64,000 nt of DNA from Balneolaceae bacterium (GTDB lineage Bacteria > Bacteroidota > Rhodothermia > Balneolales > Balneolaceae), in assembly GCA_034521445.1 (NCBI GenBank), contig JAXHMM010000006.1:62001-126000 (forward strand). Direction: 5' to 3'. This document shows positions 9,773 to 19,814 of this stretch, piece by piece. How positions within the stretch are numbered: position 1 is the stretch's first letter; each line of letters starts with the position of its first letter. Made by a program: the position numbers and the translations under genes. The notes beneath the pieces were generated by a model, which ran no database searches, was not told the DNA's origin, and saw only the letters and a program-made list of their open reading frames with translations.

Positions 9773-12244
9773 TTACTCCTGGCGGATACTCTCCACGGGA
9801 TTCATGAGCGCGGCCTGCAGGGACTTCCAGCCTACGGTGAGCAGGCAGAGCAGCAGGCTGAACAGGCCCGCGCCCAGGAAGATGGCCGCCGCGTTCCATC
9901 CCAGGTCGATGCGATAGGGAAATTGCGCGAGCCAATCGCGCGCGGCGAACCAGATCACCGGCCAGGCGATAAGGTTGGCGACCAGCACCAGTTTCAGGTA
10001 GTCTTTCGAGAGCAGAGCAAGGATCTGTGAGATGGAGGCGCCCAGGGTTTTACGCAGCCCAATCTCGCGGGTGCGCAGGGAGGTGGTGTAGGAGGCCAGC
10101 CCGAAGAGTCCAAGGCAGGCCACGACGATAGCCAGCAGCGTGAGTCCGCCGGACAGGCGGGCCATCTGCCGCTCGGAAGCGTAGGTCTGGCTGAGCTCCT
10201 GTTCGTGAAAGGTATAGCGGAATGGATCGATGTGGTTTACCTCCTCCCATGCGCTTCGAAGCGCCTCAATGCCCTCCTGTGTCCGTCCCGGCGCCAGCCT
10301 GGCCGCCACGTACTGGATGTGGCGCACGATGGGTTCGCCCTCGCCGACCACGCGGATGACCAGGGGACCCACTTCTTTGCGCAGAGTGGTGTGGTTGAAG
10401 TTCTCGGTCACGCCGATTACCGTGAAGGTCTGTCGCTCCTGCACCGAGGAGTCGAGGTGAAACTGGGCGCCGACAGCCTCCTGGGGCGTATCGGCGTCCA
10501 TAAGCTGCAGCATCTGCCGGTTTACCATAACCGCCTGGTCGGCATCGGTGCTGAAGTCCCGTGAGAAGCCGCGCCCGGCAATGACCGAAATGTCGTAGGT
10601 ATCCAGGAAGTCGAAAGTTACGAAAAGCGCCGGGTTGGATCCCCCCGCGGCGCCGCTTCCGCTGGCCGCGGCGTCTGCTGCAGAGGGCGTAAACATGTAA
10701 AACATTTCCTCGTCCGCCCCCAGCACGTATTCCGAACCGGCCACGCCGGTTACCGCGGGACTCTGCAGAGCCAGATCGCGAAATTTGGGATAGTACCAGG
10801 CGATGAGCGTCTGCGACATGGGCATGACTACCACACGCTCCGTATCGTAGCCCATATCACGCGACTGCATATGGCCGAGCTGTTGGTAGATCACCACCGT
10901 GCCAATGATTAGTATGACCGACACGCTGAACTGGAACACCACCAGTCCTTTCCGAAAGAGGGTAGCCGACTCCGCGCCGCCCCCGCGACCCCGCAGAATG
11001 CGGGCGGGCTCGAAGCCCGACAGGTAGAGCGCGGGATAGAGTCCCGAGAGGATGCCCACCAGTAGGGTGATGCCCAGCAGGCCCAGCAGCATCGCAGGGT
11101 CGGCCAGTGGACGAAAAACCAGGGGCTTGTCCACGAAATCGACGAAAAAAGGCAGGGCCGCCTTCACCATCACTGAGGCCAGCACCACGGCCAGAAAAGT
11201 GAGCAGCAGCGACTCCCCGACGAACTGTCCGAGCAAGGTCCGCCGGTCGGCTCCCAGCACCTTGCGCATGCCCACTTCACGGCCCCGCTCCATGGAGCGC
11301 GCCGTAGCGAGGTTCACAAAGTTGATGCAGGCGATGACCAGCACCATGAGGGCGATGCCCGAAAAGAGCAGCACGTAGTTCCAGGAGCCCGTGGGACCCA
11401 TCTCCTCCCCTCGGTCGGAGTGCAGGTGAATGTCGGTCACCGGCTGCAGGGCCAACTCCACACGCTCGCCCTCGGGCCGGTTGGGATGGTAGTAGGTGTC
11501 GGCAAAGTTCGGTAGCTGCGACTCAAGGGCTTCACGCTGCACGCCCTCGGCCAGCTTCACGTAGGTCCAGACCGGATTGGCGTACCAGCTCTCGTCGTAG
11601 GGCTGTCCCCCGAACAGCGCGGGAAGCGTGGTGAAGGAAGCGAGAAGCTCCAGCCGCAGGTGGGAGTTTTCAGGAAGGGTTTCCATCACGCCGGTCACCG
11701 TAAAATCGAGCACCCCCTTGTAGCTGAGCGTCTTGCCCATGGGATCCTCCTCCCCGAAATAACGGCGGGCGGCCTCGCGTGTGAGTACCACCGACTGAGG
11801 GTCCCTCAGCGCGGTGCGGGCATCGCCGGCCGCCATCCCGATGTCAAAAAATTCCAGGGCGGTGGAGTCGGCGAAGTAGAAATACTCCTCGACAAAGGAG
11901 ATGTCCTCCTCAGCGTAGCGCAGGGTGTGCGAATCCTCCTGCATGTTGTAGAAGCGCGTTGTGCTCTCCACCATCTCCGGGTATTCCTGCTCCAGCGAAG
12001 GGGCCACCCGGAAGGGCACCGAGGCGTAGGGCTCGGACTTGGTGGGCGAAAGGGAGGTCTGCACAAAACGGTACGTCCGCTGCCTGTCGGGGAGAAAATC
12101 GTCGTAGCTCAGTTCGTGCAGCACGTATAGGGCCGTCAGTATACAGCAGGCGATACCGATGGCCATGCCCAGTATGTTGAGAAAGGTGTACCCCTTATTG
12201 CCCAGCAGATTGCGCAGGGCAACCCGTAAATAGTTTCGTAGCAT
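9773..12244 (-). CDS. FtsX/MacB-type ABC transporter permease
   Basis: The 823-residue product shows the double MacB layout used by the paralogues here. TM1 is at about 19-42, then comes a periplasmic domain. Helices follow at about 286-306, 343-363, 383-405 and 431-453, then a second periplasmic domain to about 690, then helices near 693, 751 and 785. Coupling-helix motifs are GREVGMRKVLGADRRTLLGQF and TREIGLRKTLGASISQILALLSKDYL. A Ser/Gly/Ala-rich loop (SAADAAASGSGAAGGSNPA) in the second periplasmic domain is peculiar to this copy. No ATPase is adjacent. The roughly 200 bp upstream region carries neither the sigma-54-like element nor the TGTTCG dyad seen before other permeases. Confidence 0.9.
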   Translation of the reverse strand: MLRNYLRVALRNLLGNKGYTFLNILGMAIGIACCILTALYVLHELSYDDFLPDRQRTYRFVQTSLSPTKSEPYASVPFRVAPSLEQEYPEMVESTTRFYNMQEDSHTLRYAEEDISFVEEYFYFADSTALEFFDIGMAAGDARTALRDPQSVVLTREAARRYFGEEDPMGKTLSYKGVLDFTVTGVMETLPENSHLRLELLASFTTLPALFGGQPYDESWYANPVWTYVKLAEGVQREALESQLPNFADTYYHPNRPEGERVELALQPVTDIHLHSDRGEEMGPTGSWNYVLLFSGIALMVLVIACINFVNLATARSMERGREVGMRKVLGADRRTLLGQFVGESLLLTFLAVVLASVMVKAALPFFVDFVDKPLVFRPLADPAMLLGLLGITLLVGILSGLYPALYLSGFEPARILRGRGGGAESATLFRKGLVVFQFSVSVILIIGTVVIYQQLGHMQSRDMGYDTERVVVMPMSQTLIAWYYPKFRDLALQSPAVTGVAGSEYVLGADEEMFYMFTPSAADAAASGSGAAGGSNPALFVTFDFLDTYDISVIAGRGFSRDFSTDADQAVMVNRQMLQLMDADTPQEAVGAQFHLDSSVQERQTFTVIGVTENFNHTTLRKEVGPLVIRVVGEGEPIVRHIQYVAARLAPGRTQEGIEALRSAWEEVNHIDPFRYTFHEQELSQTYASERQMARLSGGLTLLAIVVACLGLFGLASYTTSLRTREIGLRKTLGASISQILALLSKDYLKLVLVANLIAWPVIWFAARDWLAQFPYRIDLGWNAAAIFLGAGLFSLLLCLLTVGWKSLQAALMNPVESIRQE

Positions 12245-13642: not shown

Positions 13643-13906
13643 TCAGATCGCCTCACGGTGGCGAAACGTGACCGGGATCTTGTCCTCCCAGGGTGTACCA
13701 ATATGGTAAATTTCCCAGTCGGAATCATAATTGTGGATCCGGTCCCGCAGAATGGACACCAGGTCCTCGGAACTTCCGGCCCTGACGTCCCAGTCGAAGG
13801 TCTCGACGCGGAATTTCATGCTGCGCTTCTCCCCGTTCACGTAGACGTCCAGGTTGACCACCTTGTCTACGTCGGGTACCGTAAACTGCACTCGTACGTT
13901 ATGCAT
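13643..13906 (-). CDS. Small conserved-looking protein of unknown function
   Basis: The 87-residue product (MHNVRVQFTVPDVDKVVNLDVYVNG...) is predicted to be mostly beta-strand with a central helix around SSEDLVSILRDRIHNY. I do not recognise a family. It begins 27 bp after the TAG that ends the full reading frame of the broken permease upstream, so it is probably co-transcribed with that gene. There is no signal peptide, so it is likely cytoplasmic. Charged and aromatic residues near the C-terminus (DWEIYHIGTPWEDKIPV) may bind a ligand or partner, but this is a guess. Confidence 0.65.
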   Translation of the reverse strand: MHNVRVQFTVPDVDKVVNLDVYVNGEKRSMKFRVETFDWDVRAGSSEDLVSILRDRIHNYDSDWEIYHIGTPWEDKIPVTFRHREAI

Positions 13907-13933: not shown

Positions 13934-14044
13934 CTACTCGCTGCGGAGCGCATCCACCGGGTTGGCACGTGCGGCCCGGAGGGACTGCCAGCTTACCGTG
14001 AGCCAGGCGATGAGCAGACCGCCTGCGGCGGCGCCCGCAAAGAT
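13934..14044 (-). pseudogene. Separated C-terminal tail of the permease above
   Basis: In the same frame as 14045-16321 and directly after its TGA, 36 codons read IFAGAAAGGLLIAWLTVSWQ and then SLRAARANPVDALRSE before TAG. That is the eighth membrane helix and tail found in every paralogue of this window. Restoring a sense codon at 14045-14047 (TGG, Trp, is one base away) would give a normal 795-residue permease. Confidence 0.85.
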
Positions 14045-16321
14045 TCAGGGACTCATGCCGGCCTGGTAAGCAAAGTTGCTCAGCCAACGGTCCATCACCA
14101 GGTAGGCCGCCGGCACGGCAACGGCGATGGCCACGGCCACCGGCCAGGTGAAGCTTTTGTTGAGTCGCAGGATGATATCCTTAATATCGGCGCCCAGCAC
14201 CCTCCTGATGCCGATCTCCTTGGTGCGCTGTTCGGTAATGTAGGAGGAGAGCCCGTAGAGTCCCATACAGGAGACCAGGATGGCCAGGCCCGTAAAAAGT
14301 GCCACAATACGGGCCAGGATTTTTTCATTACCCAGCATCTGTTCAAAATTACGGTCCATGAAATAATAATTCATGGCTTCGTCGGGAGACCGGCTGTTCC
14401 ATAGTTCATGCATCGAAGCCAGCACCGTTTCGACCTGTCCGGATTCGACTTTTAACAGCAGGCGGTTTCCCTGGCGGTATCCCGGATGGTACATCAGTAC
14501 AGTGGGCTCAATGCGTTTGCGAAGGCTCTCGTAGTTAAAATCACTGACGACCCCGATTACCTCGTAGCGATCGTTGATGCGCGCACCCAGGGCCTCGCCG
14601 GTCAGTCCCAGCTCGCTCACCGCGCTTTCGTTTAAAACCACCGTACTGGTATCGGACGGATTGCCCGAATCAAAATACCTGCCTTCCAGCAATCTGAAAC
14701 CCATTAGGGAGGGGAAAGCAGCGTCGGCCAGAAATCGCTGGATGGAGGCGGGCTCTTCCATCTGAGGCGTCTGCATATTGATAATGGAAATGCCCTGGCC
14801 TGCCGGGATACGGTTACTGAACCCGGCAACTTGAACGCCCGCCAGGCGGGACGCCTCCTCGCGGAGGGCTTCCCGTCCCTGCCCGAGGTCGTTCAGGTTG
14901 TCAACGACCAGGACGTTTTCGGTCTCAAGGCCCATATCTTTCTGCTGCATGTAGTCAAGTTGTCGATAGACCACTCCGGCGCAGATAATCAGGCCGATGG
15001 ATATGGCAAACTGGGAGATCACCAGGGCATTGCGGAGAGGCGCCGACGAAGCCGAGCGGTAGGTGCCCTTCAGCACGCTCACCGGGTCGAAGCGGGTAAG
15101 GTAGAAGGCGGGGTACAGCCCGGCAAGCAGTCCCACCAGCACCGCGATACCCGACATCGAAAGAACCTGGACGGGAGACTGAAGGACGGTGTCCAGAAAA
15201 GCCAGGCCGGTCATGCTTTTGAAGGCCGACAGGAAGATTTCGGCCAGTCCCAGGGCCAGCACCATGGCCATCAGGCAGAGAAGCACCGATTCCATCAGGA
15301 ACTGCATGACCAGCGCGGGCCGGCCGGTTCCAAGGGTTTTGCGGATGCCCACCTCCCGGGCACGCGTGGCACCGCGCGCGGTTACCAGGTTAATAAAGTT
15401 GATAGCTGCAATGAGAAGGATGAAGAGGGCCACGATGCCGAAGGCCCGAACGTTGGTGCGGTCGCCGGTGGGACCGATCTCAAATCGCTGGTCCGATTGC
15501 AGGTATATATCCTCAATATTCATGGTCAGAAAGCGGTAGCCCGTTGCGCTCGTCTTCCACTCCTCGTAGGAAAGGGAACCGCCCAGGGCGGGATAGATCT
15601 CCTGCTCAACCAGGCGGTCCAGCGCCTCCCGGTACGCTGCTTCCGACACCCCTTCTCTCAGCTTCACGTAGTTGTAGGAGGAAGCCGAGGTCCAGCTTCC
15701 CTCTTCCGGATAACGTGTACTCAACCACATGCGCGCAGGGATGTGCGAGCGGTAGCCGCGATCTTCCACCACCCCCGCTACCGTATAGGGTATCTCCTCC
15801 TCGCCTACCAGGATCTGTTCGCCGATGACGCTCTCGTACCCGGTCCCCTCCTGTCCAAAATAGGTGCGGGCCAGCTCGTCGGTGAGCACCACCGCATTCG
15901 GGTCGTCCAGGGCGGTGGAGGGATTCCCTGCCACAAAACGATGTGAAAAAACTTCGAAGAAGGCACTGTCCGCCCGGAAGGCATCGGGTTGACGGAATTC
16001 CTCCCCGCCTACATGCATCACCGGGTTCTGCGCCCAGTCAATCTGCGTGGTGCGCTCCACCTGTGGGAAGCCGGTCCGCATCACCTCGGCGAATTTCGGC
16101 GGACCCGGGGCCATGTCGCCGATATTGTAGAAATTTGCGCCAACGCGGTAGATCCGTTCGGAGTCCTGGAAATGACGATCGTTGCTGGTCTCCTGGTGCA
16201 CCCACATGCCGATGATCAACGTACAGGCCAGGCCGACGGCCAGCCCCGCGATGTTGATGGCAGAATAGCTGAAGCGACGTCTCAGGTTGCGGAAAGCGAC
16301 TTTCAGATAATTCAGAAACAT
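14045..16321 (-). CDS. FtsX/MacB-type permease ended early by an in-frame TGA
   Basis: This frame gives 758 residues with the usual first seven helices and motifs TRAREVGIRKTLGTGRPALVMQF and TKEIGIRRVLGADIKDIILRLNKSF. It stops at SNFAYQAGMSP, just before the last helix. The same frame continues after the TGA (14045-14047) through 36 further codons to a proper paralogue-like end. The gene is therefore a nonsense-mutated permease, or carries a sequencing error or a recoded stop. A sigma-54-like element at 16381-16397 and an upstream dyad region at 16438-16490 place it under the same control as two other permease operons. Without the eighth helix the protein is probably impaired. Confidence 0.85.
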   Translation of the reverse strand: MFLNYLKVAFRNLRRRFSYSAINIAGLAVGLACTLIIGMWVHQETSNDRHFQDSERIYRVGANFYNIGDMAPGPPKFAEVMRTGFPQVERTTQIDWAQNPVMHVGGEEFRQPDAFRADSAFFEVFSHRFVAGNPSTALDDPNAVVLTDELARTYFGQEGTGYESVIGEQILVGEEEIPYTVAGVVEDRGYRSHIPARMWLSTRYPEEGSWTSASSYNYVKLREGVSEAAYREALDRLVEQEIYPALGGSLSYEEWKTSATGYRFLTMNIEDIYLQSDQRFEIGPTGDRTNVRAFGIVALFILLIAAINFINLVTARGATRAREVGIRKTLGTGRPALVMQFLMESVLLCLMAMVLALGLAEIFLSAFKSMTGLAFLDTVLQSPVQVLSMSGIAVLVGLLAGLYPAFYLTRFDPVSVLKGTYRSASSAPLRNALVISQFAISIGLIICAGVVYRQLDYMQQKDMGLETENVLVVDNLNDLGQGREALREEASRLAGVQVAGFSNRIPAGQGISIINMQTPQMEEPASIQRFLADAAFPSLMGFRLLEGRYFDSGNPSDTSTVVLNESAVSELGLTGEALGARINDRYEVIGVVSDFNYESLRKRIEPTVLMYHPGYRQGNRLLLKVESGQVETVLASMHELWNSRSPDEAMNYYFMDRNFEQMLGNEKILARIVALFTGLAILVSCMGLYGLSSYITEQRTKEIGIRRVLGADIKDIILRLNKSFTWPVAVAIAVAVPAAYLVMDRWLSNFAYQAGMSP

Positions 16322-16508: not shown

Positions 16509-16910
16509 TCACCAGAGCGATTCGATGAATTTGTATTGCGCAATACTTTTATCCTTTGTGATGAGGATCGCATGCTGATCCATACAGCTGGCCACAATAA
16601 TTCGGTCTGCAGGGTCACCGTGAAAAGTTCCCGGCAGCCGGGTAGAGAGAACCGCAATTTCAGGGGAGAGAGGAAGGAGATTGATTTTCGGCTTATCCAG
16701 CGCTTTGGATATCCACTGCTGGACATCCATGGCCAGACCCAGCCTTTCCTTAGCCACCAGCATGGCAACCTCCCAACATGAGATTGCACAGATTCCGATT
16801 CGCTCGGCTTCGGAAAGTTTGCGCCGGGCCGTATCGGACAGCTTATCGGAATCCGTAGCGAACCATATCCAGGCATGCGTATCGAGAACAATCACCGGTC
16901 GGCCTCCCAA
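16509..16910 (-). CDS. vapC: PIN-domain toxin (VapC-like ribonuclease)
   Basis: A 133-residue PIN protein with the acidic active-site set Asp in VLDTHAW, Glu in SCWEVAM, and Asp in GDPADRIIVA plus TKDKS. It should be a Mg2+-dependent RNase, typically cutting tRNA or rRNA when free of antitoxin. The ATG at 16910 overlaps the antitoxin gene by 19 bp; an internal GTG at 16895 (VIVLDTHAW) is an alternative start that would shorten the overlap. TrpHis after the first Asp and the DPADR motif are typical of the Phd-linked PIN subgroup. Confidence 0.9.
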   Translation of the reverse strand: MGGRPVIVLDTHAWIWFATDSDKLSDTARRKLSEAERIGICAISCWEVAMLVAKERLGLAMDVQQWISKALDKPKINLLPLSPEIAVLSTRLPGTFHGDPADRIIVASCMDQHAILITKDKSIAQYKFIESLW

Positions 16911-19177: not shown

Positions 19178-19435
19178 ATGAAAACCACCATGACTCAAAA
19201 AGGCCAGATCGTCATTCCGGCGGAGCTTCGACGGAAATATGACCTGAAAGCCGGAACCACCATACATGTGGAAGAGGAAAACGGAAAAATTGTACTAAAA
19301 CCGGTTACGGCGGCTTATATCCGCAGCCTGAGAGGGATACTGAAAACTCCGGAAGGAGAAAAGTCAGCACTGGACATGCTGAAAGAAGAGCGGGAAGCCG
19401 ACAGGAGACGAGAGGATGAAGGCTTTAGTTCTTGA
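19178..19435 (+). CDS. AbrB/MazE/SpoVT-type antitoxin (VapB-like)
   Basis: An 85-residue protein with the swapped-hairpin AbrB fold at residues 4-48: MTQKGQIVIPAELRRKYDLK, then GTTIHVEEENGKIVLKP. A charged C-terminal helix (ALDMLKEEREADRRREDEGF) would bind the toxin encoded by the overlapping next gene. The GQIVIPAELR pattern is diagnostic. It probably represses its own promoter through the repeats at 19078-19128. Confidence 0.92.
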   Translation: MKTTMTQKGQIVIPAELRRKYDLKAGTTIHVEEENGKIVLKPVTAAYIRSLRGILKTPEGEKSALDMLKEEREADRRREDEGFSS

Positions 19436-19814
19436 CGCCTGGCCCCTTCTGGCCTTCTATCTTGAAGAGCCCAAGGCTCAAAGTATCGAGCGTATTCTGA
19501 TTGACAGCCAGCATAACGGAACCGAACTCCTGATATCGGTCGTCAATACAGGAGAGATATGGTACGCTGTCTGCCGGGCACACGGTAGTCATGAAGCAGA
19601 CCGGATCATACATACCATTCAGGAGCTGAATATTGCCATCAAACCCGTGGACTGGAACCTGACCCGCATGGCCGCAGCCTTCAAGGCATCGGGAGGACTC
19701 TCCTACGCCGACTGCTTCGCCGCCGCTCTGGCCCGCCGCGAGCAAGCCGCCCTGGTCACCGGTGATCCCGAATTCCGCCGCCTCGAGGGAGAGATCGAGA
19801 TCAACTGGATATAG
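19416..19814 (+). CDS. vapC: PIN-domain toxin (VapC-like ribonuclease)
   Basis: A 132-residue PIN protein whose acidic quartet is visible as LVLDAWPLLAFY, VNTGEIWY, LSYADCFAAALA and LVTGDPEFRRLE. It overlaps the antitoxin gene by 20 bp, as usual for VapBC modules. The final residues EGEIEINWI match many VapC ends (often IKWL). It differs from the PIN toxin at 16509-16910 both in sequence and in its antitoxin type, so the two modules are not recent duplicates. Confidence 0.92.
   Translation: MKALVLDAWPLLAFYLEEPKAQSIERILIDSQHNGTELLISVVNTGEIWYAVCRAHGSHEADRIIHTIQELNIAIKPVDWNLTRMAAAFKASGGLSYADCFAAALARREQAALVTGDPEFRRLEGEIEINWI

Follow-up and report, generated by a model that had tools for sequence, protein, structure and literature searches.

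One of about fifteen full-length ADOP-type permease genes in the genome of this Balneolaceae bacterium carries an in-frame TGA codon just before the segment coding for its last helix, and the remainder of the family-typical reading frame follows the stop in an undisturbed state. Most likely this redundant transporter gene is present as a nonsense allele, an ordinary event and not a new form of decoding, and we consider it probable that it arose by a recent single-base nonsense substitution. The coordinates given here refer to the window, the whole stretch of 64,000 nucleotides of contig JAXHMM010000006.1 that was analysed.

The permease is transcribed leftwards, with its ATG at 16321 on the minus strand. 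The open part (codons 1–758; 14048–16321) is defined by the reading frame together with the Pfam and TIGR03434 matches and lacks the last helix; codon 759 is the TGA at 14047–14045, and the frame from 14045 to 16321, including the TGA, codes for 758 amino acids, in agreement with the first-pass annotation. The same frame then continues for 36 codons (13937–14044; IFAGAAAGGLLIAWLTVSWQSLRAARANPVDALRSE) to a TAG at 13936–13934, the position at which, from the frame and the alignment, genes of this family typically end. The first-pass annotation had read these 36 codons as the missing eighth helix followed by an ANPVDALRSE terminus, and both the alignment of relatives and a profile of their tails bear this out, the helix assignment being by alignment to relatives only. 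The DNA thus still encodes a full-length form with the last helix and the N-P-V-x-x-L-R-x-E end, although this last part lies beyond the TGA. No insertion or deletion disturbs the frame before or after the stop, and the earlier view that no frameshift is needed holds.

The interrupted gene has the organization of the ADOP duplicated permeases (TIGR03434; PF12704 and PF02687, twice each), with two tandem MacB_PCD and FtsX units extending over its whole length and two matching stretches for each of the two Pfam families (E-values of 1.4e-33 for MacB_PCD and 3.8e-23 for FtsX), and the frame past the TGA encodes the last helix and NPVxxLRSE end of that family. It differs from the ADOP permeases in that a TGA precedes the last helix, and in that its match to TIGR03434 (residues 6–743, E-value 7.9e-99) scores 331.8 bits, below the curated NCBI cut-off of 622.3 bits. 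The low score reflects the branch to which the protein belongs and not the stop, because an intact paralog at 9776–12244 also falls below the cut-off, with 293.3 bits. Since the cut-off is missed, we refer to the gene as ADOP-type and not as a member of TIGR03434.

The resemblance of the tail to the family is not due to chance, as the 36 codons score 69.6 bits against an HMM of the corresponding tails in 43 relatives, with the interrupted gene itself excluded, whereas the best of 2000 shuffled versions reaches 14.2 bits. The closest relative within the family (L042) is 47% identical and open to its end, and the level of identity to it is 348 of 748 positions in the body and 18 of 36 in the tail; a peptide search for an ortholog closer than this one found none. 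Matches at E-values up to 1e-100 are present in 44 of the 92 genomes covered by the family-wide scan, and in the comparison set our assembly alone represents its genus. The alignment comprises 116 relatives, including 14 intact paralogs from the same genome and 73 sequences that came from scanning other groups of bacteria. All 116 have 36–37 residues after the TGA column and none ends at the TGA, so that homologues naturally terminating at this site, which the first-pass annotation had named as a reason to doubt an interruption, are absent from the sequences aligned. The complete extension in every relative contradicts the idea that the gene is a natural shorter permease variant with the downstream match as a mere leftover, for which nothing speaks beyond the open frame itself and to which we assign next to no likelihood.

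Because none of the 116 relatives ends at this point and no indel is needed, the TGA is read as a substitution inside a full-length gene, and a substitution-type in-frame stop before the last helix is well supported by the sequence comparisons. The first-pass annotation went further and proposed a G-to-A change in a TGG tryptophan codon. Its appeal to a substitution stands, and tryptophan is indeed the commonest residue in the TGA column across the 116 relatives (W 60, G 17, D 6, M 6, L 6, and others), but TGG itself is only plausible as the ancestral codon, for in the four closest relatives the column reads Leu, Gly, Leu and Gly (codons CTT, GGA, TTG and GGC). Within the bacterium's own family (43 sequences) the column holds G 12, W 7, D 6, M 5, and others. 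As the gene is GC-rich, a change from TGG to TGA is a reasonable supposition, but a change from GGA to TGA would equally be a single step.

The fourteen other full-length ADOP-type genes of the genome are without an inner stop, and two of them (L025 and L026) use TGA as their terminator. Two weak FtsX matches (L036 with TAG and L039 with TGA) were also flagged as having inner stops, and these were set aside as their frames stop at ordinary gene ends with no interruption. Nine of the fifteen copies are clustered within about 41 kb of a single contig (G000:C6:67395-108102), including those at 9773–12244 and 14045–16321 of the window, and a comparable ADOP array surrounds L042 in its own genome (G080). 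The permease is flanked directly upstream by a leftwards-transcribed PIN-domain gene (16509–16910) and directly downstream by a leftwards-transcribed open reading frame of 87 residues without a Pfam match (13643–13906); at 19178–19814 a rightwards-transcribed MazE-type antitoxin gene is followed by a PIN-domain gene, likely a VapBC-type pair.

There is no visible decay on either side of the TGA. At the 75 strongly conserved columns, defined as those in which at least 90% of the other sequences agree, the interrupted protein departs from the consensus at 2, against 2 to 16 for its paralogs in the genome, and the tail is uneroded. The stop is therefore recent, or a mistake in the assembly, or one that leakage makes tolerable, and the missing decay fits a very young mutation, a base-calling or assembly error, and a selected leaky stop equally well. 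With a nonsense mutation, normal translation would end at the TGA and yield a 758-residue protein ending in the loop before helix 8, which, lacking the last helix, would probably fold or assemble poorly and be inactive; the copy would thus be a loss-of-function allele or a young pseudogene, and its loss may be tolerable by virtue of its many paralogs. The absence of the in-frame stop from all of the aligned relatives and paralogs is what is expected of a nonsense allele.

A base-calling or consensus error, or a mixture of strains, with a true sense codon at 14045–14047 and an ordinary full-length permease, accounts for the sequence nearly as simply as a nonsense mutation, given that one wrong base would suffice and that body and tail look fully constrained. 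The assembly (3.2 Mb in 18 contigs, with 97.8% completeness and 3.84% contamination) and its position as the sole genome of its genus compared also leave room for an error of this kind. The TGA site is not a homopolymer, however, the other ADOP paralogs have no inner stops, and substitution errors are generally rare where a short-read consensus is deep, such that we regard an error as a possibility to be taken seriously but on the whole unlikely.

Decoding of the TGA was considered in several forms. UGA is leaky in some bacteria, with leakage of about 12% in Escherichia coli versus 0.04–0.08% in two Pseudomonas species (PMC9481147), and with rates so variable from one bacterium to another the gene may yield some full-length protein. 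Near-cognate tRNA-Trp(CCA) might occasionally read the TGA to give a little full-length permease, and the stop might even be retained to lower expression, in keeping with the uneroded tail and with reports that in-frame stops under purifying selection are widespread in prokaryotes (PMC7918605). None of the relatives compared shares this stop, however, so the conservation between species expected of programmed read-through is lacking, and there is no sign of selection for the stop. The tRNA-Trp found is an ordinary one with anticodon CCA and a 5-bp anticodon stem, whereas the form able to read UGA has a stem of 4 bp (PMC13092985), and neither a suppressor tRNA nor a UCA anticodon was found in the tRNA loci scanned, which are part of the genome's set. 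The read-through context that the first-pass annotation suggested looking for did not materialize, as no stimulatory hairpin follows the TGA and the downstream RNA folds slightly worse than its shuffled versions (z +1.1). We consider leakage improbable, and the stronger proposition, a kept, leaky stop by which this lineage would hold its full-length permease at a low dose, very improbable. Programmed recoding fits the frequent occurrence of tryptophan in this column, but is extremely improbable in either form: selenocysteine is rejected in that those matches to a tRNA-Sec model that were scanned are tRNA-Leu, -Ser, -Tyr and -Cys genes and no SelB match exceeded the cut-off, and a TGA=Trp code is rejected in view of the release factor 2 (RF2) in the genome, the tRNA-Trp described above, and the TGA terminators of intact paralogs.

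A recent nonsense substitution in one of the permease copies is therefore our preferred reading, and similar interruptions occur elsewhere in the family. An ADOP permease in genome G024 (L068; C12:200933-203332, minus strand) has one in-frame TAG at codon 746, at a helix 7 position that is mostly Trp or Tyr in relatives, and another ADOP permease match (G081:C110:10-2418) has one in-frame TAA. Both share with the present gene a lone stop in an otherwise open frame, but their stop codons are other than TGA and that of L068 lies in helix 7. Reports of in-frame stops in prokaryotic genes that nevertheless stay under purifying selection are widespread (Belinky et al. 2021, PMC7918605), and the permease is like these cases in having a single in-frame stop with the frame conserved on both sides, but differs in that the stop is without a counterpart in any relative compared. 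The literature on ADOP and on permease pseudogenes turned up nothing useful. An annotation of the genome should flag the gene as interrupted and should keep the last 36 codons out of the intergenic sequence. The significance beyond annotation is little, and the permease would extend by one the examples already known of in-frame nonsense codons in bacterial transporter families with redundant members.
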